NCBI GenBank assembly: GCA_946187325.1
Contig: CAMHQC010000006.1
Location: 1-64,000, forward strand
Origin: an uncultured Clostridia bacterium
Lineage (GTDB): Bacteria > Bacillota > Clostridia > Oscillospirales > Acutalibacteraceae
Length of the DNA stretch: 64,000 nt
Direction of reading: 5' to 3'
Numbering within the stretch: position 1 is the first letter of the stretch; every line of letters starts with the position of its first letter. The position numbers and the translations under genes are program-made. The notes below the pieces were generated by a model. That model saw only the letters and a list, made by a program, of their open reading frames with translations. It did no database searches and was not told where the DNA came from. Of this stretch, positions 11 through 38,763 are shown one piece after another.

Positions 11-1432
11 GTGGTTTCATGTGCTTATAAAGAAGGATATGCTCCATTTTCGAAAGAAGCTACGAAGATATTGCAAAAACGCCAAGAGAATATGAAAGAT
101 TGGATTGATAGAATTAATCCCGAAGAAGATTGTACAGATGAAGAAATGGAATTGTATTCAAGCGATGTTCTTCCTGAAGAGTATTTTGATTTTAAATATC
201 CTAATGATTTATTGGAGCTTGTAATAAGAGAACATAGCGATGAAATAAACCAAAGATTTCAATCATTCAAATCTATTTGTAATAACCAAAACAACTGTCC
301 AGTAATTTTATCTCTTATACCCATTAAAATGAGTTTTAGTGATACTGGATATATTTATTGCCCAATTGATGTAATTGTACATAATAGTGGACTTTGTATG
401 TTAACATTTAGTGCTAAGCTATTAGATGTGGATATTGATGATTTTTCTTGTATCCCTTTAAAGCGTTGGTATGATAGTATTAGGGTTTATGATACTATTC
501 TATCGGATAGTTCTATAAACAATGTGGATAGTAAGTTTAAAATAATAGGTGTTAGTAAAAAAACGCATGGTGAAATATCTGATATCGTTGATGTTTTAAT
601 GGAGTATATTAAGCACTTGTTCGATCACTATTTATCTGAACAAAGAAGTTATACTTGCTTCGAAAGTATTCTGATTGAACAAGCAGATGTAGATATAAAA
701 AACCAAAATGATAATATAATAGTTGGCATATTAAATAATTTATTATATCCTATACATTCTTTTGGAAACAAAAATGATTTAGATATGCAATTTGCAATGG
801 GAAATAGTCTTAATCTATATGGACTTAAATTTTTTAAAGGCTTTCCGGCTAGGTTGATTGTGATGAACCATGGTTACTTAGAAAATGTACAAAATAAAAC
901 AGCGCAGGATATAAATAGATTTTTTAAAGCTAATTTTGAATTATATGTTTTTATAGCATTATGTAAAAAGGAGGTGGAAACGGCAACATATACTCAATCA
1001 TTTGAAAAAAAGAAGTCGGTTATTGAAAATATTATAAAATATAATTCCGATTTAGTTTTATTAGAAGATATAATGTATGCTTCATCATACTCCAAAAGAC
1101 TTTTCTATCAGTATGTTAATGATATAATTGAGAATACATTTGAAAATTATTCTGAAAAAATAAAGCGGTTGGAGTTAATAGAAAACAGCAAAAAAGAACT
1201 TAGAAATAGGCGGATTTCTAGTTTGTTGCAAATTATTACGTTGATTTTTACAGCTATGTTTGGATTGCCAGCTATAACGCAGACCATAAAAATTATTAGA
1301 AGTCTTTTTGATACAAAACAGGATTTAATTCCATTTTTTTCAGTAAGTTTATTATCTGTAGTTATATGGGCTTTGATTCTATTTGTAATATCAGTAAGGT
1401 ATTTTCGTTTGTTTAGAAAAGAAAAACAATAG
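11..1432 (+). CDS. Hypothetical protein with two C-terminal TM helices; 5' end may lie outside the window
   Basis: Long ORF, AT-rich; hydrophobic segments LLQIITLIFTAMFGLPA and FFSVSLLSVVIWALILFVISV near the C-terminus; no upstream stop before the window edge. Confidence 0.6.
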   Translation: MVSCAYKEGYAPFSKEATKILQKRQENMKDWIDRINPEEDCTDEEMELYSSDVLPEEYFDFKYPNDLLELVIREHSDEINQRFQSFKSICNNQNNCPVILSLIPIKMSFSDTGYIYCPIDVIVHNSGLCMLTFSAKLLDVDIDDFSCIPLKRWYDSIRVYDTILSDSSINNVDSKFKIIGVSKKTHGEISDIVDVLMEYIKHLFDHYLSEQRSYTCFESILIEQADVDIKNQNDNIIVGILNNLLYPIHSFGNKNDLDMQFAMGNSLNLYGLKFFKGFPARLIVMNHGYLENVQNKTAQDINRFFKANFELYVFIALCKKEVETATYTQSFEKKKSVIENIIKYNSDLVLLEDIMYASSYSKRLFYQYVNDIIENTFENYSEKIKRLELIENSKKELRNRRISSLLQIITLIFTAMFGLPAITQTIKIIRSLFDTKQDLIPFFSVSLLSVVIWALILFVISVRYFRLFRKEKQ

Positions 1433-1524
1433 TAATTGATAAAACCATAGTTAAATAGAACTATTAGCCGACTAAAGAATAAAAACCATACACAGGCGAT
1501 TTGTCGCGAAATGTGGGCAAAATA

Positions 1525-1573
1525 AAGCGCAGGCGCGGAGTCCGTTTGAATTGGAAACCACGCCTGCACTTTT
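1525..1573 (+). terminator. Intrinsic terminator-like hairpin
   Basis: AAAGCGCAGGCGcgg...CCACGCCTGCACTTTT inverted repeat. Confidence 0.5.
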
Positions 1574-1755
1574 GATTATGTCGCAATACCGAGGCATTGT
1601 TTTGTGTGACAGCAACGAGCTATGTAAGGTGGTTGTATATTAGCTTACAAAATCTGAAATTGCAAGTCTTTTGAAAATGTTTTAATCTTTCAGTTTTGGT
1701 CTGGACTTCGTGCAGGTTGTGTGATAGTCTTCCTTGTTAAAGGAGGCGAATCACA

Positions 1756-7523: not shown

Positions 7524-7608
7524 TGGTGGGAGAGGATGGATTCGAACCATCGAAGCGAAACGCAACAGATTTACAGTCTGCCCCCTTTGGCCACTCGGGA
7601 ACTCTCCC
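7524..7608 (-). tRNA. tRNA-Tyr(GTA)
   Basis: GGGAGAG acceptor, class II variable arm, GTA anticodon, encoded CCA. Confidence 0.95.
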
Positions 7609-19069: not shown

Positions 19070-19117
19070 TTTATGTAAAGTAAAAAAAGGTATCCCATTT
19101 GGAATACCTTTTTGATT

Positions 19118-19294
19118 GGTTGCGGAGACATAGTTCTATCTCCGGAAAATACCTGCCTCGCCTTTTACGGCTTGTTTAGGGGATAGTTTCATCTGCGCGG
19201 CGGTCTAAAAACGCTTACCCGAAGCGTTTTTACCTTCGATTTTCGCTGACGCTTAAATCTCGGTACGACCTGTTCAAGTCCTGCCTCCGCAACC
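19118..19294 (-). repeat. tRNA-tail mirror unit F1 (fMet locus)
   Basis: Bounded by GGTTGCGGAGA (19118-19128) and inverted TTCAAGTCCTGCCTCCGCAACC (19273-19294); contains hairpin TAAAAACGCTT..AAGCGTTTTTA and AAACAAGCCGTAAAAGG. Confidence 0.6.
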
Positions 19295-29439: not shown

Positions 29440-29620
29440 ACACTCGCTTCGAATCTCTTGCCTCAATCAAAAAAATAAGGAACCAACTCCAAAGAGCTAG
29501 TTCCTTATTTGGCGGAGGACAAGAGTATATCATAAATGCGAGGACTTTGTTCTCGAACCTTACGGCTTGTTCAAAGCTAAAGTATCATAAACGCTCCTCG
29601 TTAAAAATGCTCCACAGGAC
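29440..29620 (-). repeat. Truncated tRNA-tail mirror unit plus terminator (copy A), near-identical to 30509-30690
   Basis: CTTCGAATCTCTTGCC...AATAAGGAACCAACTC..GAGCTAGTTCCTTATTTGGCGGAGGACAAGAG...CGAACCTTACGGCTTGTTCAAAGCTAAAGTATCATAAACGCTCC. Confidence 0.8.
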
Positions 29621-29652
29621 ACACTCAATAAAGAATGTACCCTGTGTGATGT

Positions 29653-30240
29653 TTATACATTTCCCATTTTTACAGCTTGTAAAAAATCTTTAGCTTCATT
29701 ATTGGGATTTGCTTTTTTTGTTGCCTCAATATCATACCAAACATATTCTAATCCGTGAACAATAATAGGAATACTATTTCCAAATTTGTTCTTGATAAAT
29801 CCCTCAGATTGTAATCGGTTGGCAACTTCTGCTGCGATATTTACAAGTTCATAATGACCTACGGGACCCTTACCAACATATTCGTCATTTTCATCATACT
29901 CATCTTCTTCGGACTCATAACCGATATCGGTGATTCCGTTTTCATTATACCAATCAAAAAGCGCGTCAGTTATTCTGTTCGGTTCAAGCGGATCTATTAC
30001 AGATGTCTCATCTTGGCTCCAAAAGGCGTAATTCCAGCGTTCTTCGTCATATTTGCCCGCACCGTCACAAAAATCTTCGGTATTGTAACTTACAGCTAAA
30101 GAAGAAACGTTTTCGAATCCACTATATTGAAAATCCTCATTTGAATATACAAAAAACGATATAGCGTAAATTCCGTTATCATCCCAATCGGATACGATTT
30201 CTTTAATTCTATTATATATTATTTCTATTATATCTGTCAT
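29653..30240 (-). CDS. Hypothetical protein, DUF4303-like
   Basis: ORF with start MTDIIEIIYNRIKE after AGGTGAT; acidic globular sequence; family call is tentative. Confidence 0.55.
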   Translation of the reverse strand: MTDIIEIIYNRIKEIVSDWDDNGIYAISFFVYSNEDFQYSGFENVSSLAVSYNTEDFCDGAGKYDEERWNYAFWSQDETSVIDPLEPNRITDALFDWYNENGITDIGYESEEDEYDENDEYVGKGPVGHYELVNIAAEVANRLQSEGFIKNKFGNSIPIIVHGLEYVWYDIEATKKANPNNEAKDFLQAVKMGNV

Positions 30241-30303
30241 GTTATCACCTAAAAACAAATATATCACTTTTTTAAGTTATTGTCAAAAAAACATCTTTAT
30301 GTA

Positions 30304-30349
30304 GTGTGTCCCACCGGACTGTTTTATTAACGCCCTTTCGAATCCCTTA
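30304..30349 (-). repeat. Truncated tRNA-tail mirror unit S3
   Basis: Minus strand GGGATTCGAAAGGGCGTTAATAAAACAGTCCGGTGGGACAC, matching the Arg-locus unit start. Confidence 0.5.
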
Positions 30350-30389: not shown

Positions 30390-30531
30390 GGCTGAGCTGG
30401 CGTACTTTTTAAGTAATAAAGAATTATATCTCGAATCGTACGGCTTGTTAAAAGGATAGTGTGATAAACGCTCCTCCCTAAAAATGTCCCACTGGGACAT
30501 TTTCTTTACGGTCGGCTTCGAATCTCTTGTC
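30390..30531 (-). repeat. tRNA-tail mirror unit S2
   Basis: Hairpin AAATGTCCCagtGGGACATTTTT; AACAAGCCGTACGATTCGAGA; tail CTTCGAATCTCTTGTC. Confidence 0.65.
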
Positions 30532-30578: not shown

Positions 30579-30724
30579 TTGGCGGAGGACAAGAATATAT
30601 CATAAATGCGAGGACTTTGTTCTCGAACCTTACGGCTTGTTCAAAGCTAAAGTATCATAAACGCTCCTCGTTAAAAATGCTCCACTGGAGCATTTTCTTA
30701 ACACTCGGCTTCGAATCTCTTGTC
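30579..30724 (-). repeat. tRNA-tail mirror unit S1
   Basis: TGGCGGAGGACAAGA (30579-30593) to inverted CTTCGAATCTCTTGTC (30709-30724); hairpin AAATGCTCCagtGGAGCATTTTT. Confidence 0.75.
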
Positions 30725-31084: not shown

Positions 31085-31123
31085 GCGCCAATAGCTCAGT
31101 AGGATAGAGCGTTCGCCTCCTAA
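31085..31123 (+). pseudogene. 5' half of tRNA-Arg(CCT), interrupted at the anticodon loop
   Basis: GCGCCAATAGCTCAGTAGGATAGAGCGTTCGCCTCCTAA; continues at 37516. Confidence 0.85.
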
Positions 31124-31197
31124 TACTTTGTTCGACCATACACTTTTGGGGTAAAAGTGATTGTTACCCTGTCAAAATTTAATTAAGTTTTTTACAC

Positions 31198-31274
31198 GCG
31201 TCAATAGCTCAGTTGGATAGAGCGCAAGCCTCCTAAGCCTGAGGTCGGGGGTTCGAGCCCCTCTTGGCGCGCCA
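31198..31274 (+). tRNA. tRNA-Arg(CCT), complete, island-borne
   Basis: GCGTCAATAGCTCAGTTGGATAGAGCGCAAGCCTCCTAAGCCTGAGGTCGGGGGTTCGAGCCCCTCTTGGCGCGCCA. Confidence 0.93.
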
Positions 31275-31278
31275 CGAA

Positions 31279-31320
31279 ACGCCGATAAATACTGATTTTT
31301 TCAGATTTATCGGCGTTCAT
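31279..31320 (+). terminator. Terminator downstream of island tRNA-Arg
   Basis: CGCCGATAAATACTGATTTTTTCAGATTTATCGGCGTTCATTTT. Confidence 0.7.
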
Positions 31321-31368
31321 TTTATTTTTTGATAAATTCTTTGCCTTTTTAAAGCAAGCTCAAAAAAC

Positions 31369-31488
31369 TTGCTAATAAAGGTGTAAGGTCTTGCTAATAA
31401 AAATTAGCAAAAAAACGGAAAATCTGCTAATAAAAAACGTCGATTTGCTAATAAGCTGTTTTTAAAAATTTGCAATATTTGCTAATAA
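31369..31488. repeat. Left-end iteron cluster TTGCTAATAA
   Basis: Copies at 31369, 31391, 31424 (CTGCTAATAA), 31445 and 31479, plus inverted TTAGCAA at 31404. Confidence 0.85.
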
Positions 31489-31587
31489 AAAGGTGATAGG
31501 TCACTTGTTGGAATTACGTTTTTTACTTGTAACTGAATATAAATGATAATAAAAAAAGCAGTTCACATTTGAACTGCTTTTTTTATC

Positions 31588-31775
31588 ATAATGATTTGGC
31601 TAATGTTTTTAATAGTGAAAGTGCTTCGGGATTTCCGATTAGCTTCGTCAATAATTCTATATCTGAGGTATCTTTGTTCTTTTCTGTTTGAGGTGTTTCT
31701 ATTGGTTGTTCTTCCTCAAAGTCAGTTTTCTTATCTCTAACCTCGTAAGTATTAAAGTCAGGTATAACAAAGCTT
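31588..31775 (-). pseudogene. 3' remnant of a gene (…VIPDFNTYEVRDKKTDFEEEQPIETPQTEKNKDTSDIELLTKLIGNPEALSLLKTLAKSL*)
   Basis: Open frame without start codon, in-frame TAA just upstream. Confidence 0.5.
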
Positions 31776-31781
31776 TAAGCC

Positions 31782-33910
31782 TTATTTTACTTTAACCTTA
31801 ACAGTCTTGACAACGGACTTTGATTTGTAATTTGCGTTACCATTTGCCTTTACCGTTACTTTGATGGTGTATTTACCCTTCTTGGCTTTCTTCCATTTCT
31901 TGATTTTAAGTACGCCCTTCTTGGAGATCGTGAGATACTTTTTGATTGTCTTTTTGGCGGACTTGATTTTAAAGCTGAGCTTACCCTGCGCCTTTTTAAC
32001 AGTAAATGTCGCGGCTTTTTGGGCAGCCTTCTTAACCTTTTTGAGCTTGACCGTCTTAGTCTTTGAAGTCACTTTGATCGGGTTGGCTTTCTTTTTGGTG
32101 ACGGTTTTAGCGGGTTCATCCTTTGCGGGCTCGTCCGCGGGCTTTACGCCGTAGAACTCGTCGATCATTTTGCTGTAAGCTTCTACATCATACAAGCCTG
32201 AATAGTCGATACCGCTTCCATCGCTTGCCTGCTTAGTCAGGTCATAATCGAGCTCGGCGCCGTTGTCAACATCCTTGTTATCCTTGGTGATGAACTTATT
32301 ATAACTTGACAGCGTGTAGAAGAACGTCTCGGGAGTGTACGCGATAAACAGTGAGCAGGCTCCGCCTCCGCTTCTTTCGCCGAGGATCGGGAAGCCCTCG
32401 TCCTTCGCGATACAGGGAAGCAGATTTCCGCAGGAATACGAGATGTTGGATGTGATAAAGGCGTATTCAAAATCATAATATACGCTCTTGTCGAGGTCGT
32501 TGATCTCTCCGTCTAAATTCATATCAACTTCGTTATCCATTCTTGTGATGTTTCCTGTAAGCGTCTGAATTTTTCTGTATGCAACAACATTGCTGTCCTT
32601 GTTTTTATTGGTGATCATAGCCATGATATACATAACGACCGCCGCGTTACCGCCGCTGTTGCAGGAAATATCTATAACAAAACGCTTAATGCCCTTTTCC
32701 TTAGCGTAGTCAAGAGACCATTTAAAATTATAAACCGCCTCGTTAACAAACGAATCAAATGCGAAAACAGCTGTATCTCCCGTAACATAAAGCTTTGATG
32801 CCGACTTGTCATCCCACGACTTTACAAGATCATAATCTTTGTATTTATCGCTTCTTAATTCCGACATAGCCCTGCTTTTCTGACTTGAGGCGAGAGTGCT
32901 CATCGCATAGTTTGCCGCAGTTCTGTCACGGAAATCCTCTGACTCGGCAAGTCTGCCAAGCTCATTATATACAGCGGTCCCGGGGGTAATAAACGATAAT
33001 ACCGCAGGGTAGTTTACCGCCGTATGACCTCCGTCGGAGAATACTTTTCCTAGATAAGCAGTTCCGAGAACATAATCAACCATATTTTCCGATAGAAGCA
33101 ATTCTTTTGCTCTACGGGTATCGTCGTTGTACTCGTCCAGCGCTTCGTCAAAGCTTTTTTCTTCGAGCATCGACGCGATTTCAGCCTGAGCGGGTCTGCC
33201 GTAAAGCTTATCAACCGCGAAGCACAGGTCGTTATAAGCCAACTCGACCAGATCCTTGCTGCGCTTGAGAGTATCATAAACCTTAGTGTTTTTGAAGTAA
33301 CAGTCTCTCATTACTATATCGGAGCTATGGATAAAATAAACGTTGTCTTCGCAATACACCGCTGTATTATAGGTCGCGCCGAAAAGGAGTCCGATTGTTG
33401 ACACAGGGAAATAGGTCTTTCCGTCGTACTCGATAATATCGATTTTATAAGACGAAAAGTCAAGATCGAGACCTTTTATTTCTCCCTCGGTGACAGACTC
33501 GTGCTCCTTAATGTAATCCACGTCCAGTTCGGTGCCCTCCGATTTTTCCTTAGCCGCGATAAAGTCCTCGAAATTATCGAAGTGAAGCGTATCCTTTTGA
33601 GCGTCGATTACCATTGTTCCATTAGGATTGGTAACCGTGTAAGTGCCGTCCGCGTTCTTAACCTCGGTCGGCTCGTCAACATAGATATGCTTCAGATAAT
33701 CAACGGTAGATATAAACGCCATATCAGGCATACTGCTTTTGAAAACGCACTTAAGCGTTTCGGTATTCTCCATATTGAAGATATACGCCGTGGTGTCTTT
33801 AGCGCTGATTTCGTCCTCAGCCGCGGACGCGGTCATCGGCAGAGCCGCGCTGATAAGGATCAAAAGCGCAAGAACCACACTGATTGGTGATAATACTTTT
33901 AACCTCCGTA
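31782..33910 (-). CDS. S41 peptidase-like secreted protein with C-terminal Lys-rich Ig-like domain; start codon unclear
   Basis: 'KRFVIDISCNSGGNAAVVMYIMAMI', 'FITSNISYSCGNLLPCIAKDEGFPILGERSGGGA'; signal peptide-like SVVLALLILISAALPMTASAA. Confidence 0.65.
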
Positions 33911-33964
33911 TAAAAATAAACGGCGTTACAGCATTCGATAGGTGCAGTAACGCCGTAAAATGTT

Positions 33965-34630
33965 TTAGTTTTCTTTGAGCATCTTTTTGGCTTTGCCGAG
34001 ATAGTAAATCTGGAAAATGTAGAGGAATACGGTAAAGCAAAGCGATAAGCCCGATAACCAGTTGACGATAGAGCCGAAAACTGTCGCTTCGGCGCCCCAA
34101 CGGCCAATGAAATTCAGAACAAATGTCAAAATGTATAAGATAACCAGAGTCGTGAGTATATCTTTGCCGCGCTTAACCATATCTTGTCTGCCGCATTTTA
34201 CAGACAGAGCCATCAGACCTAAGATAAGGAAAATAGTCGCGAGCATATTGCAAATATTTCCGGCAACCGTCAGAATAGTGTAGAGCCATCCAAAGAAACC
34301 TGTCTGGTTTGCGAAGAAAGACGCCGCAACGGTAAATACAATACTGAAAATCACACATAAAATAGCTTTCTTAAAGTCGGCTTCGTCCTTGCCCGCCTGA
34401 AAATATCCGACTATACTCATAATTCCCGCAACGGCAATTACAATACCCGCAACAAGCGTCAAAGCGCCCGTAACGATAAAAAGAGTTTTTGAAGCGCCTT
34501 GATCGACGTTTCCCGATACCGCGATAAAGCTCAGTATCATACCGACTCCGCCAAGCAGAGCGGCGATCAATGAGATGATTTCGGCGTTAAAAATCTTGCT
34601 AACGCCTTTTGCTGCGTTTGGAAATTTCAT
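33965..34630 (-). CDS. Multi-TM membrane protein, paralogue of 61606-62340
   Basis: RBS AAGGAGAG; MKFPNAAKGVSKIFNAEIISLIAALL compared with MEFPNTARGLKKIFAGEIIGLISVALL. Confidence 0.7.
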   Translation of the reverse strand: MKFPNAAKGVSKIFNAEIISLIAALLGGVGMILSFIAVSGNVDQGASKTLFIVTGALTLVAGIVIAVAGIMSIVGYFQAGKDEADFKKAILCVIFSIVFTVAASFFANQTGFFGWLYTILTVAGNICNMLATIFLILGLMALSVKCGRQDMVKRGKDILTTLVILYILTFVLNFIGRWGAEATVFGSIVNWLSGLSLCFTVFLYIFQIYYLGKAKKMLKEN

Positions 34631-34742
34631 GTTTTTCTCTCCTTAGAATGAAATAATTATAATAAAACGTGAAACGTTTATTACCTATAACAGATGAATA
34701 TAGTCGTACTGTACAGAGCAAGGCGCTTGTTTTGCGTAACCA

Positions 34743-34940
34743 TTACTTCTTTTTATTTCTGAGAAACAACAACCAGCCTACTGTGATCGCCATGGCAAGC
34801 GGAACGACCAGATCGATGATCGGCGAAAACTGATAGCCGCTTCTTGTAATGAAGGTGGTGTAAAGGAAGTCAAGGAGCTGCCACAGGGCAAAACACAATA
34901 CTAAGAATATACAAAATGCCACATACTTGTTCTTTATCAT
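34743..34940 (-). CDS. Small two-TM membrane protein
   Basis: RBS AAAAGGTGAT; hydrophobic segments. Confidence 0.6.
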   Translation of the reverse strand: MIKNKYVAFCIFLVLCFALWQLLDFLYTTFITRSGYQFSPIIDLVVPLAMAITVGWLLFLRNKKK

Positions 34941-35164
34941 CAAATCACCTTTTCCGATATTTGTTTTTTTCTCTCCTTAGACAAATTAAGAATAATAAAC
35001 CAGTCTCCTGTTTATTACCTGACCTTGTAATTCTATCATAAATACGCCATAAGACAATAAGATGTGTCAGAGCGTGACATCTTCTTTTGGAATGGTGTTG
35101 TATTTCAAAGGTACTTCCCTTATAATATAATAGATACAGTATACTTCCATGAGAGGAAAAGCAC

Positions 35165-35758
35165 ATGAAGGATTCCTTTGCCGATACCCTGAAACAATTC
35201 AGAACTGAAAAAAATCTGTCCCAGCAGCAGCTCGCCGATATGCTGTTTGTGGAACGCAGCACGATAGCAAACTGGGAGACGGGACGGCGGATCCCCGACG
35301 CTGTTCTGCTGCTGAGGATCTCCAAATGTTTAGATATGGACATCAACATTTTATTGGAAACGATCGACAACACCGTAGAGGAACCAAACATCATTATGGT
35401 TGATGACGAGAGTATCATTCTAAAGGGCGGTATGTCGGTGATCGGTCATTTGCTTCCCAACGCTTTGGTCACAGGCTTTACTTCTCCGACAGAAGCGCTG
35501 TCATTCGCTCGGTCCAACCGCGTACATCTGGCTTATATCGATATCGAAATGGGAAAACTAAACGGGCTTGAGTTGTGCCGTGAACTGCTGAAAATCAATC
35601 CGCGAACAAACGTCATCTATCTGACCGCCTATCCCGATTACGCACTGGAGGCGTGGAATACCGGCGCCTGCGGCTTTGCCGTAAAACCCCTTTCCGCAAA
35701 ACAGGTGCGCGATCACCTAACGAGACTGAAGTTTCCAATAAGGGGGTTGCGGCTATGA
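35165..35758 (+). CDS. Response regulator with N-terminal XRE HTH and C-terminal REC domain
   Basis: 'LKQFRTEKNLSQQQLADMLFVERSTIANWETGRRIP' then 'IIMVDDESIILKGG...HLAYIDIEMGKLNGLELCREL..NVIYLTAYPDYALEA..GFAVKPLS'. Confidence 0.9.
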   Translation: MKDSFADTLKQFRTEKNLSQQQLADMLFVERSTIANWETGRRIPDAVLLLRISKCLDMDINILLETIDNTVEEPNIIMVDDESIILKGGMSVIGHLLPNALVTGFTSPTEALSFARSNRVHLAYIDIEMGKLNGLELCRELLKINPRTNVIYLTAYPDYALEAWNTGACGFAVKPLSAKQVRDHLTRLKFPIRGLRL

Positions 35759-36960
35759 TGGATTGGACGACATATTTTTCTGCTGTGATAGATTTGACGA
35801 CCTTATTGCTCGGTGTGCTCGGAATACTGATCACTTTTATCCTGCGTGATACCGAAAGTCAGTGGCGGAAATTTTGTGTTTTCTTCTTTTCTGTAATGAT
35901 ATTAAAAACGGTTGCCGCTCTGATCGGTCAGCTTGCCGCTCTGTATTGGAAAAATATACCGCTTAAAACAGCGTGTGATTTCCTCGGCGTTTTGTTTTCA
36001 TCTACCATTATTCCGCTGTTGACGCTTTACATCTTACGCTGTTGTTCGCAGGAGCCCCGCCAATCATTCCTGTGGAAGCTTATCCTCATCCTTTGGGGAT
36101 TATCCGCAGCGGCAGCCATCGGCGACCTGCTGGAACGTACTCTTTTTACAGCCCCGACGCAGGACGGTACAGAGCATAAGCGCTGGTTGATACTGATTTA
36201 TCTGCTTTTTACGGCAATCAGCCTGATCGTCTGCTTTGTCGCGGTGATCCGCAGAAGAAAACAGCTTTCAAAATTCCAATTCATTCTCATATTGGTTTAT
36301 TTGTTGGCGCCTGTTTCTGTTATGCTGCTTGCGATGGAACTGATGCTGTTTGTCGATCAGGGAAAGCGCTATCTCGAGCAAAAGGAAGAAATCGCTAACC
36401 AGAAGGTAAGTCTTGCCGTACTGCAAATGCGTCCGCATTTCATCTACAACACAATGACGAGCATTTACTATCTGATTGATCAGGATGCGGCTAAAGCGCA
36501 AAAGGTAACGCTGAACTTCACCAATTATCTCAGAAAGAATTTTACTGCAATCGCCAAGGAGAGAACCATCCCGTTTACCGAGGAGTTGGAACACACAAAA
36601 GCGTATTTGTCAGTTGAGCAGGTGCGTTTTGAGGGTAAACTGTTTGTGGAGTTTGATACCGATTACACGAATTTCAGACTGCCTCCGCTTACCATTCAGC
36701 CAATTGTGGAAAACGCCGTCAAGCACGGAGTTGATCCCGACCTTGATCCGCTTACCATCTATATTCAAACCCGAGAAGTAAAGAACGGCGTTGAAATAAC
36801 CGTTGCCGACACCGGACCGGGCTTCGGCGCGAAGGACAACGACGAGCCGCATATCGCTTTAGGGAATATCCGCGAAAGGCTCGAAATGATGTGTAAGGGA
36901 AAAATGGAGATCGCTCCGCGCGACAGCGGAACCATAGTCAAAATATATATACCTCAATAA
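35755..36960 (+). CDS. LytS/YpdA-type sensor histidine kinase
   Basis: ATGA overlap with the regulator; TM helices; 'LQMRPHFIYNTMTSIYYLI', 'PIVENAVKHGV', 'VADTGPGFG'. Confidence 0.9.
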   Translation: MMDWTTYFSAVIDLTTLLLGVLGILITFILRDTESQWRKFCVFFFSVMILKTVAALIGQLAALYWKNIPLKTACDFLGVLFSSTIIPLLTLYILRCCSQEPRQSFLWKLILILWGLSAAAAIGDLLERTLFTAPTQDGTEHKRWLILIYLLFTAISLIVCFVAVIRRRKQLSKFQFILILVYLLAPVSVMLLAMELMLFVDQGKRYLEQKEEIANQKVSLAVLQMRPHFIYNTMTSIYYLIDQDAAKAQKVTLNFTNYLRKNFTAIAKERTIPFTEELEHTKAYLSVEQVRFEGKLFVEFDTDYTNFRLPPLTIQPIVENAVKHGVDPDLDPLTIYIQTREVKNGVEITVADTGPGFGAKDNDEPHIALGNIRERLEMMCKGKMEIAPRDSGTIVKIYIPQ

Positions 36961-37002
36961 CGAAGCTGCGTTTACACCGATATATTACAACAAAACTACA
37001 GT

Positions 37003-37039
37003 TAAAAAGTCACTCTCCTAATCAAACAGAGAGTGACTT
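37003..37039 (+). terminator. Intrinsic terminator
   Basis: AAAGTCACTCTCctaatcaaacaGAGAGTGACTTT. Confidence 0.7.
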
Positions 37040-37051
37040 TAATTTTGTATC

Positions 37052-37156
37052 CTATTTACCTTTACTGTTAAGGTCGTTTTTTAGATTTATAAGTGATTGT
37101 ATTAGTTTGCTTTGTTTATTCGCTGTTAAATAAACGCGATACTTCTTATTGGTCAT
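37052..37156 (-). CDS. 34-aa ORF MTNKKYRVYLTANKQSKLIQSLINLKNDLNSKGK, possibly truncated
   Basis: RBS GGAAAGGATTG; resembles the N-terminus of small ORFs carried by Firmicutes integrative elements (recollection). Confidence 0.45.
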   Translation of the reverse strand: MTNKKYRVYLTANKQSKLIQSLINLKNDLNSKGK

Positions 37157-37364
37157 ATAATTCAATCCTTTCCTTGCTTTTTTATACTATTATAAAGTAC
37201 AATATATTTACAGGAAAGTATGCGATAATTCAGTATTATAAGTTGATGTTCGTTCAGTATTAAATTATGTTTTTTGCTTTGAAAAATACAGTAGTCATTT
37301 AGTGATAAAAAATCATTTTTATCACGTTTTTAACAGGGAAACATACAACTTGCAAAACGGCTTT

Positions 37365-37414
37365 TTGCTAATAATCTGCTAATAAGACTATTTGAAAACG
37401 GTTGATATTAGCAA
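37365..37414. repeat. Right-end iteron cluster TTGCTAATAA
   Basis: Copies at 37365, 37376 (CTGCTAATAA) and inverted at 37408. Confidence 0.8.
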
Positions 37415-37515
37415 GTTTTAGTTAAAATCAGATTAACACCCAAACATTGTGAAACCCGCATAAATACTGAATTATTTGGCATTGTTTAAGTCTGAAAAAT
37501 CCGATGCGGGAGGTG

Positions 37516-37559
37516 CTCCTAAGCGAAAGGCCGGGGTTCGAATCCCTTTTGGCGCGCCA
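37516..37559 (+). pseudogene. 3' half of the disrupted tRNA-Arg(CCT)
   Basis: CTCCTAAGCGAAAGGCCGGGGTTCGAATCCCTTTTGGCGCGCCA; GCGAA pairs with TTCGC of 31085-31123; TTGGCGC pairs with GCGCCAA. Confidence 0.85.
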
Positions 37560-37563
37560 AAAC

Positions 37564-37704
37564 AAAAGGGATTCGAAAGGGCGTAAATAAAACAGTCCTG
37601 TGGACTGTTTTTAGCCCGTAGCGTTTATGATATTTTAGCTTTGAACAAGCCACAAGGTTCGAGATTAATCGTTTTATATATATTAATTGTACTTTTGGCG
37701 CGCC
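37564..37704 (+). repeat. tRNA-tail mirror unit U1 (Arg locus)
   Basis: AAAAGGGATTCGAA...CAGTCCtgtGGACTGTTTTT...GAACAAGCCACAAGGTTCGAGA...CTTTTGGCGCGCC. Confidence 0.8.
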
Positions 37705-37742
37705 AAAACAAAAGAGCCTTAACGGCTCTTTTTGTTTTGCTC

Positions 37743-37880
37743 AAAAGGGATTCGAAAGGGCGTAAATAATACAGTCCTGTGGACTGTTTTTAGCCCGTAG
37801 CGCTTATGAGTATTTCAGCAATGAACAAGCCGCAAGGTTCGAGATTAATCGTTTTATATATATTAATTGTACTTTTGGCG
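37743..37880 (+). repeat. tRNA-tail mirror unit U2 (Arg locus), near-identical to U1
   Basis: Near-identical repeat with GAACAAGCCGCAAGGTTCGAGA core, ending CTTTTGGCG. Confidence 0.8.
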
Positions 37881-37916
37881 AAAAAAAGCAGACAGTTTAA
37901 TAGCTGCCTGCTTTTT
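37881..37916. terminator. Bidirectional terminator
   Basis: AAAAAAAGCAGACAGtttaatagCTGCCTGCTTTTT. Confidence 0.65.
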
Positions 37917-38763
37917 AAGTATCTAAGAACTGTTTTAATTTGTTAAGATTCTTTTCGGCGACGCTCCTGCCGATATTATAAACCTTCCTTAAAACCTCCG
38001 CGTCGTGTTCAATACGACCGATAGGGAGCTTTTCTTCGGGGCAGATGATAAACGCGCTATTATTATTTTCCTGTTCAAAAACATATTCGCGTTGTTTATT
38101 GTACATTTCGTGGCGGTTTTCTATACATTTTATCATATTAGGGTACTTTCTGAGCGAGAATCTCATAAGCCCCATAGCCGAAGCCTTTTCCTTGGTAAAG
38201 TCCCTCGGTTGAGTGAGGATAACTACATTTTTCTCGAAGCCTTTATTTACCATAAACTCGAGCGGTATAGAGTCCGACATTCCGCCGTCGAGCATAGTCC
38301 GCCCGCCGACCTTTACGGGTTTAGATACCATCGGCATTGACGCCGAAGCCCTGAACCATTCGTATGTATCGTCCGTGACTTTATTGCAAAGCTGATAGAC
38401 AGGCTTGCCTGTGTAAACATCAGTACATACAACGTAAAATTCTATATTAGAATTATTATAAGTTTCTTTGTCGAATTTATCGAGCTTATCGGGGATAGTA
38501 TGGTAACAAAATTCCGCGCCGAAAATGTCGCCCGTTTTAATCAGCGAGCGCACACTGCAATAGCGTTTATCCTTACAGTATTTCGTATTATATCGGATAA
38601 CCCTGCCGATTTGCTTTGATTTAAAGTTACATCCGAAAGCCGCTCCCGCCGATACCCCGACGCAACCGTCAAAATCTATTCCGTTTTCCATAAGAACATC
38701 GCATACCCCCGCGGTAAACATTCCGCGCATAGCTCCGCCCTCAAGCACTAAACCTGTTCTCAC
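37915..38763 (-). CDS. Patatin-like phospholipase family protein
   Basis: 'GLVLEGGAMRGMFTAGV', 'CVGVSAGAAFGCNF', 'LDGGMSDSIP'. Confidence 0.93.
   Translation of the reverse strand: MRTGLVLEGGAMRGMFTAGVCDVLMENGIDFDGCVGVSAGAAFGCNFKSKQIGRVIRYNTKYCKDKRYCSVRSLIKTGDIFGAEFCYHTIPDKLDKFDKETYNNSNIEFYVVCTDVYTGKPVYQLCNKVTDDTYEWFRASASMPMVSKPVKVGGRTMLDGGMSDSIPLEFMVNKGFEKNVVILTQPRDFTKEKASAMGLMRFSLRKYPNMIKCIENRHEMYNKQREYVFEQENNNSAFIICPEEKLPIGRIEHDAEVLRKVYNIGRSVAEKNLNKLKQFLDT

Follow-up and report, generated by a model that had tools for sequence, protein, structure and literature searches.

Why should two nearly identical stretches of DNA stand one behind the other downstream of a tRNA-Arg gene, each framed by pieces of that same tRNA? 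The question is raised by units U1 and U2 in a 64,000-nucleotide stretch (the window; positions 1 to 64,000 of contig CAMHQC010000006.1) from an uncultured Clostridia bacterium of the Acutalibacteraceae, whose assembly (GCA_946187325.1, called G000 here) comprises 1.95 Mb in 45 contigs. The reading we favor, to which we give a probability of roughly 0.6, is that the units are copies of a small (about 190 bp), non-coding mobile DNA cassette that is fitted to tRNA genes and mobilized in trans.

Aligned with each other, U1 (37564-37700) and U2 (37743-37880) are identical in 131 of 138 columns, with one gap. Both carry the hairpin AACAGTCC-TGT-GGACTGTT and the core GAACAAGCCRCAAGGTTCGAGA that an initial annotation of this DNA had quoted for them. 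They start with an antisense segment, AAAAGGGATTCGAA, and end with a sense segment, CTTTTGGCG(CGCCA); both ends match the 3′ end of the adjoining tRNA-Arg (...GTTCGAATCCCTTTTGGCGCGCCA, at 37516-37559), consistent with the proposal that they derive from the local tRNA. The terminator-like hairpins that follow U1 and U2 differ, so that the conserved part is, as had been suggested, the unit and not the terminator. The likeness of the two units, and of both to many homologues, is far beyond chance, judging from the homologues and from the E-values of a covariance model (CM) built from eight units, U1 and U2 among them. Only short open reading frames (ORFs) overlap the stretch, and a cassette of about 190 bp is too small for an integrase gene. 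U1 and U2 themselves seem to have arisen by tandem duplication in place, but units homologous to them stand at other tRNAs, and the case is not one of a simple duplication confined to this locus.

The tRNA-Arg next to U1 is only the 3′ half of a gene. Joined to a 5′ half found upstream, it is recognized by ARAGORN as tRNA-Arg(cct), and the anticodon-loop heptamer CTCCTAA, common to both halves, stands at either end of an insertion of about 6.4 kb (31124-37515) in the anticodon loop. Since the halves rejoin across this insertion, U1 and U2 belong to the original tRNA-Arg locus, which is now cut by a seemingly unrelated insertion. The insertion carries a complete tRNA-Arg(CCT) of its own (31198-31274) and encodes an S41-peptidase-like protein, an HTH-response regulator, and a histidine kinase; the five ORFs tested include no recombinase. 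The 3′ half and U1 have no terminator between them; by inspection, one seems to have been lost between AAAAG repeats. When orthologous tRNA-Arg loci were sought in other species through the neighboring patatin-like gene, none of the 27 loci had a tRNA.

The family is far larger than this pair. A pattern search of the source genome found nine cores, and units or remnants lie behind many of its listed tRNA genes. The CM gave 18 matches there at an E of ≤0.1. In the window the family also occurs at the tRNA-Ser and fMet loci, as the initial annotation had held; beyond these, it is found behind many other tRNAs. At an E of ≤0.01, it matched 67 of 72 genomes of the genus (Ruminococcus-type metagenome-assembled genomes), with up to 28 copies per genome; outside the genus, 6 of 46 genomes had matches, all weak. 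An exact pattern occurs in 66 stretches of a collection of named genomes, all of them in records labeled Ruminococcus, Clostridia, Clostridiales, Oscillospiraceae, or unclassified uncultured bacterium, and the complete chromosome of Ruminococcus sp. FMBCY1 has three tandem units behind tRNA-Arg. When 295 genomes of the order were searched with a second model, built from 127 matches, 11 had units at an E of ≤1e-4, and 9 of these 11 lie outside the genus. The end of a same-strand tRNA lies no more than 240 nucleotides (nt) upstream for 11 of the 15 out-of-genus matches, and many out-of-genus units show, by eye and unscored, the same antisense start and sense tRNA end with very different cores. 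The family is genus-wide and probably order-wide. No Rfam family matched the units above its gathering threshold, and a small literature search found no paper describing such units. Directly behind one out-of-genus unit (L309, 1689-1759) is a match to Gut-1 RNA (48.4 bits; cutoff, 50); it is a separate hairpin array and was rejected as a part of that unit.

Common anatomy was read from 127 units of 80 sources, mostly chosen from CM unit matches, so that units are over-represented by construction. They sit behind a tRNA gene, or behind what we take to be a tmRNA gene (GGGGGTTCGATTCCCCCCATCTCCACCA), and its terminator. Behind the tRNA and its terminator comes first a segment antisense to the tRNA from nt 54 to about nt 67, next the hairpin and the core, and then nt 63-76 once more in sense orientation, with CCA; a terminator or unique DNA follows. 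The antisense segment matches the unit's own tRNA at 1,065 of 1,170 positions (91%; 90 units, 13 nt each), compared with 69% after shuffling, and its positions opposite nt 57, 59, and 62-66 track the target base where tRNAs differ. An earlier count, limited to the 84 of 127 units upstream of which ARAGORN called a tRNA (81 could be anchored), had given 9.3 of 14 for the own tRNA, compared with 6.06 of 14 when the remaining tRNAs of that genome served as targets. The sense copy starts directly after a stretch like ..GATGAACATA and is free of mismatches over all 14 nt in 48 of 86 units. The longest exact sense match is 14 nt in 42 of 93 units (the rest of the 127 had no upstream tRNA or less than 60 nt downstream), compared with mostly 4 to 6 nt for other tRNAs of the same genome. 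A control that ignores the core found the antisense-plus-sense architecture at 6 of 27 tRNAs of the source genome, 1 of 2 in G036, 1 of 14 in G316, and 0 of 27 in G079, and at none of 128 mismatched tRNA pairs of the source genome. Of 51 first-in-array units compared for their terminators, 42 had a 3′ copy; the terminators before and after the unit are near identical at 20 of these 42 loci and different or absent at most others.

Empty and occupied sites both exist. One tRNA(CAT), in G059, is followed by two units, and the flank after the last CCA is 95% identical over 79 nt to the flank that directly follows the unit-free tRNA(CAT) of G036. At tRNA-Pro(GGG) of G033, a unit occupies a second TTCAA site (GTTCAAGAGG) in the anticodon region, and its antisense segment fits that site; the displaced tRNA end is followed by the same terminator as behind the empty tRNA-Pro of G000 (89% over 45 nt). 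A third and weaker case is a tRNA-Leu (G071 compared with L188; 78% over 126 nt). As sequence comparisons, these fit the insertion of a cassette near the 62|63 boundary, with the tRNA rebuilt. We propose that this cassette, running from tRNA nt 63-76 with CCA through the terminator, the reverse complement of nt 54-67, and the hairpin and core as far as ..GATGAACATA, would split the tRNA gene at about nt 62|63. The left end of the cassette would rebuild the tRNA 3′ end and supply a terminator, leaving the tRNA functional, and the original 3′ end would be displaced to the far side, where it would appear as a direct repeat. Because the site would be regenerated, copies could stack in tandem. A recombinase encoded elsewhere would move the cassette, and the antisense segment, which spans the insertion point, may be either a guide to insertion or a by-product of it.

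The ends of the units are uncoupled from the core. Among 70 distinct full-length units, mean core identity is 0.84 between array mates, 0.644 between units at different tRNAs of one genome, and 0.596 between units differing in both genome and tRNA; the nearest neighbor is at another tRNA in another genome for 36 units, at another tRNA in the same genome for 19, and at the same tRNA in another genome for 15. Within this set, 40 pairs share a core identity of at least 75% while their targets differ at 3 or more of 13 positions. In these pairs the antisense segment matches its own tRNA at 12.05 of 13 positions and the partner's at 8.65, the sense copy scores 13.25 of 14 against 6.91, and only 3 of 80 comparisons fall nearer to the partner's tRNA. 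Since similar cores occur at different tRNAs with locally matching ends, the cores appear to change place or to be converted while the ends track the local tRNA. The ends may have been matched by rewriting at insertion or by later conversion, and the data fit both. One can envision, though we find it rather doubtful, that the element rewrites its own ends at each insertion, copying the target tRNA end once inverted and once direct. Such rewriting would let one core family harmlessly colonize any tRNA or tmRNA, since the 3′ end and the terminator would be rebuilt each time. The inverted copy would then serve as a nucleic acid guide that spans the insertion point, and an undescribed enzyme would read it in the form of folded single-stranded DNA.

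Could the same pattern arise in repeats that do not move? Old, fixed repeats, set behind tRNAs long ago, might now only multiply by tandem duplication and mix by ectopic gene conversion through the shared hairpin and core, with the tRNA sequence converting the adjacent direct and inverted repeats and thus keeping their ends matched. The great similarity of array mates would follow naturally, as would the fact that related species have near-identical units behind the same tRNA, the Ser/Gln chimera S2 of the window, and a core identity barely higher within genomes than between them. Nevertheless, we consider this unlikely: at every locus an inverted 13-nt segment and a direct 14-nt segment would both have to be converted while the core drifts to about 60% identity, empty sites exist, and the unusual second tRNA-Pro site bears an antisense segment that matches it.

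Whether the units act as DNA or as RNA can be judged from the hairpin and the antisense segment. The hairpin stem covaries strongly: the stored structure has 260 double-change cells, compared with 81.7 in shuffles, and none of 500 shuffles reached that number. Helix 3 holds nearly all of these cells, and its inner pairs are almost without G-T. Such a hairpin is present in 116 of the 127 units, and its inner stems are fully Watson-Crick in 111 of the 116. Wobble pairs are likewise scarcer among antisense mismatches than in shuffled sequence (13% versus 26%), which leaves an RNA guide unsupported by any wobble signature. Because the hairpin is nearly free of G-T and the antisense segment lacks this signature, we infer that the unit acts as DNA, as a folded single strand or a palindrome, and not as RNA. 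The same depletion of wobble, in both places, makes a functional RNA that controls the tRNA quite unlikely, whether a readthrough antisense pairing with the T arm, a fail-safe terminator, or a CCA-ending tRNA-like decoy. Such an RNA would suit the location behind tRNA and terminator, the exact CCA ends, the covarying hairpin with its T tract, and the presence in several families of the order; it is at odds with the variable presence of units per tRNA, many tRNAs having none, and with the lack of an Rfam match. A self-cleaving ribozyme, considered because some units have CTGATGA, CGAAA, and an NUH-like junction, was rejected because the presumed catalytic letters are not constant and no ribozyme appeared among the cmscan matches up to an E of 5.

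Several observations weigh against a mobile cassette. An empty site of this kind would also result if the DNA between the 14-nt repeats were deleted, and we infer the direction of the event. No insertion was seen between strains, and the species compared are diverged. The 15 nearest neighbors at the same tRNA in another genome exceed the 2.9 expected, and vertical inheritance is clear for some units. Within a unit, the mismatches of the antisense segment and those of the sense segment are uncorrelated (rho −0.10, 83 units), so that the two ends do not keep one common clock; joint aging of both was rejected for lack of this correlation. The out-of-genus lineages start the sense copy elsewhere, at about nt 55-63 by eye, and the exact site is thus not universal. 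Helix 1, which pairs the antisense start with the core (68.7% of cells), could serve an RNA as well. Searches for IS110 and Y1 identified no mobilizing enzyme: IS110 was found in 22 of 80 genus genomes (E ≤ 1e-3) and not in G000, and a Y1 transposase (PF01797) was found in 15 of 28 chosen genomes, the unit-rich G008, G015, G054, and G059 being without it, as were the unit-bearing G005 and G018. Mobilization by Y1, as for REP elements, was rejected, the cognate gene not being consistently present. Three pattern scans of viral contigs gave 0 to 1 matches per pattern and one in all, and this sole unit lies outside the phage, a prophage that occupies tRNA-Ser and has a gene resembling an integrase by eye; a phage origin was rejected on that account.

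The unit beside that prophage might instead suggest that the units are what is left of att sites belonging to phages or tyrosine-integrase elements with tRNA 3′ ends as their targets. The target region is the same, and the tRNA 3′ end is element borne as in classical integrative elements. An integrase, however, normally serves a single site, and here one core family stands at many tRNAs and tmRNA; the unit in question is chromosomal, outside attR, and viral contigs are nearly devoid of matches. We regard att remnants as very unlikely. A non-autonomous IS110/IS1111 derivative with a bridge (seek) RNA is scarcely credible: the antisense segment across the insertion point does have the length of a bridge RNA guide, but it is one contiguous segment, whereas bridge RNAs, according to PMC11208160, need one guide per strand. 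Moreover, the one IS110-family element that adjoins a unit (in G007; L213, about 233-1744, reverse strand; 371-aa transposase, NF033542) is inserted in the foot of the unit hairpin, so that the unit is its target; with IS110 also patchy and absent from G000, an IS110 parent of the units was rejected.

Returning to the mobile cassette, the units fall outside every family tested; they resemble a minute tRNA-targeted integrative element, but one that is gene-free and bears an inverted copy of its target. Classical tRNA-targeted elements (phages, integrative and conjugative elements, and islands) insert in the 3′ part of the tRNA, restore its 3′ end, leave a direct repeat, and can stack. The units share the insertion in a tRNA gene, the direct repeat, and the restored 3′ end; they differ in having only about 190 bp and no gene, in placing one core at many tRNAs, and in the inverted target copy. 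Integron cassettes with attC are small and tandem and have a folded palindromic end site with complementary outer ends and unconserved stem sequence. The units are likewise small and tandem with a DNA hairpin, but they have no conserved R and L boxes (consensus RYYYAAC/GTTRRRY, compared by eye with the alignment of the units), and their outer ends are tRNA specific; no integron integrase was identified, though no search was aimed at one. In REP elements and the ends of IS200-IS605 elements, both associated with Y1, a hairpin is preceded by a short target-complementary segment; these sequences are intergenic and multicopy and are themselves targets of insertion sequences (ISs). All of this applies to the units, except that their complementarity is about 14 nt, to a tRNA, rather than 4 nt, and that several unit-rich genomes have no Y1. 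Miniature inverted-repeat transposable elements (MITEs) are, like the units, short, non-coding, palindromic, and multicopy, but the terminal repeats of the units equal the local tRNA and are not inverted repeats constant across copies. With IS110/IS1111 the units have in common the target-complementary segment over the insertion point, but they have no transposase, and the IS110 found targets a unit.

REP sequences as targets of ISs, and tRNA ends as hot spots, are the subject of work cited in PMC10589994. If their ends are rewritten or guided, the units would represent mobile DNA of a class whose fit to essential genes comes from complementarity and not from a fixed site, with one core serving many tRNAs. 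This could partly explain the persistence of tRNA 3′-end hot spots in the order, with the units themselves as landing sites for IS110 and an immunity-like gene. Even on a plainer reading, a genus-wide repeat that gives many tRNA loci another terminator and a second 3′ end affects how genomes of gut bacteria are assembled and annotated, and perhaps how their tRNAs are expressed.

Table. Units, their parts, and associated features in the window, with the basis for each assignment
Feature	Positions	Strand	Basis
Unit U1	37564..37705	+	CM, E=7.4e-25 (own-genome search)
U1 start segment (antisense; reverse complement of nt 54-67 of tRNA-Arg)	37564..37577	+	Sequence
U1 conserved hairpin, NGN loop	37591..37609	+	Covariation, 123 distinct rows
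U1 core, GAACAAGCCACAAGGTTCGAGA	37643..37664	+	Sequence, pattern search
U1 sense copy of tRNA nt 63-76 (CTTTTGGCGCGCCA)	37692..37705	+	14/14 exact
Terminator-like hairpin separating U1 from U2	37706..37741	+	Sequence
Unit U2, tandem copy of U1	37743..37880	+	CM, E=8.6e-23; 131/138 identity with U1
U2 conserved hairpin	37771..37787	+	Sequence
U2 sense copy, truncated (CTTTTGGCG)	37872..37880	+	Exact match of 9 nt
Terminator-like hairpin after U2, unlike that after U1	37881..37917	+	Sequence
tRNA-Arg(CCT) 5′ half, anticodon loop CTCCTAA at its end	31085..31123	+	Sequence
tRNA-Arg(CCT) 3′ half, source of the U1/U2 ends	37516..37559	+	Sequence
Unit S1, behind tRNA-Ser(GCT)	30581..30724	-	CM, E=8.2e-25
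Unit S2, Ser/Gln chimera: Ser-type start, right end and next terminator of tRNA-Gln type	30390..30531	-	CM, sequence
Third, interrupted unit, left half (hairpin left arm AACAGTCC)	30316..30348	-	Sequence
Interrupted unit, right half, Ser type	29549..29644	-	CM, E=3.8e-6
204-aa ORF in hairpin of interrupted unit (cargo)	29653..30267	-	Sequence comparison
Unit M1, behind tRNA-Met(CAT), fMet locus; long antisense start, about tRNA nt 53-75	19117..19294	-	CM, E=9.8e-4; sequence

At the tRNA-Ser locus, the initial annotation had taken a truncated unit start to be of Arg type and to suggest exchange between loci. This fragment (30316-30348) does share its hairpin class with U1 and U2, but over its antisense start, together with the tRNA end and terminator before it, 84 of 101 columns agree with the tRNA-Gln(TTG) locus of that genome. 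Loci have indeed exchanged sequence, but an exchange from Arg to Ser is not supported by this fragment. The 204-aa ORF lies inside a hairpin, that of the interrupted unit, with imperfect inverted ends. The ORF product is 38% identical to a protein of G068 (L248) that follows an RHS/YD-repeat toxin tip (assigned by eye), and from this resemblance it is perhaps an orphan immunity-like gene. A second, partial copy of the ORF lies in another unit hairpin (L052).

Elsewhere in the window, the tRNA-Tyr at 7527-7608 has apparently been separated from its terminator and unit, which are now on contig C17 of the same genome (L057), following a mobile-element-like end; in G036, tRNA-Tyr, terminator, and unit stand together. 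On contigs C7, C10, and C12 of G000 (L028, L034, and L032), several units are interrupted or followed by palindromic repeats of another family (around CTCTGTTCAT..GCRATTAA..TTAATYGC..GTGAAC). Finally, positions 2664-2758 of the plus strand match the Rfam pemK RNA with 44.6 bits, above the gathering score.
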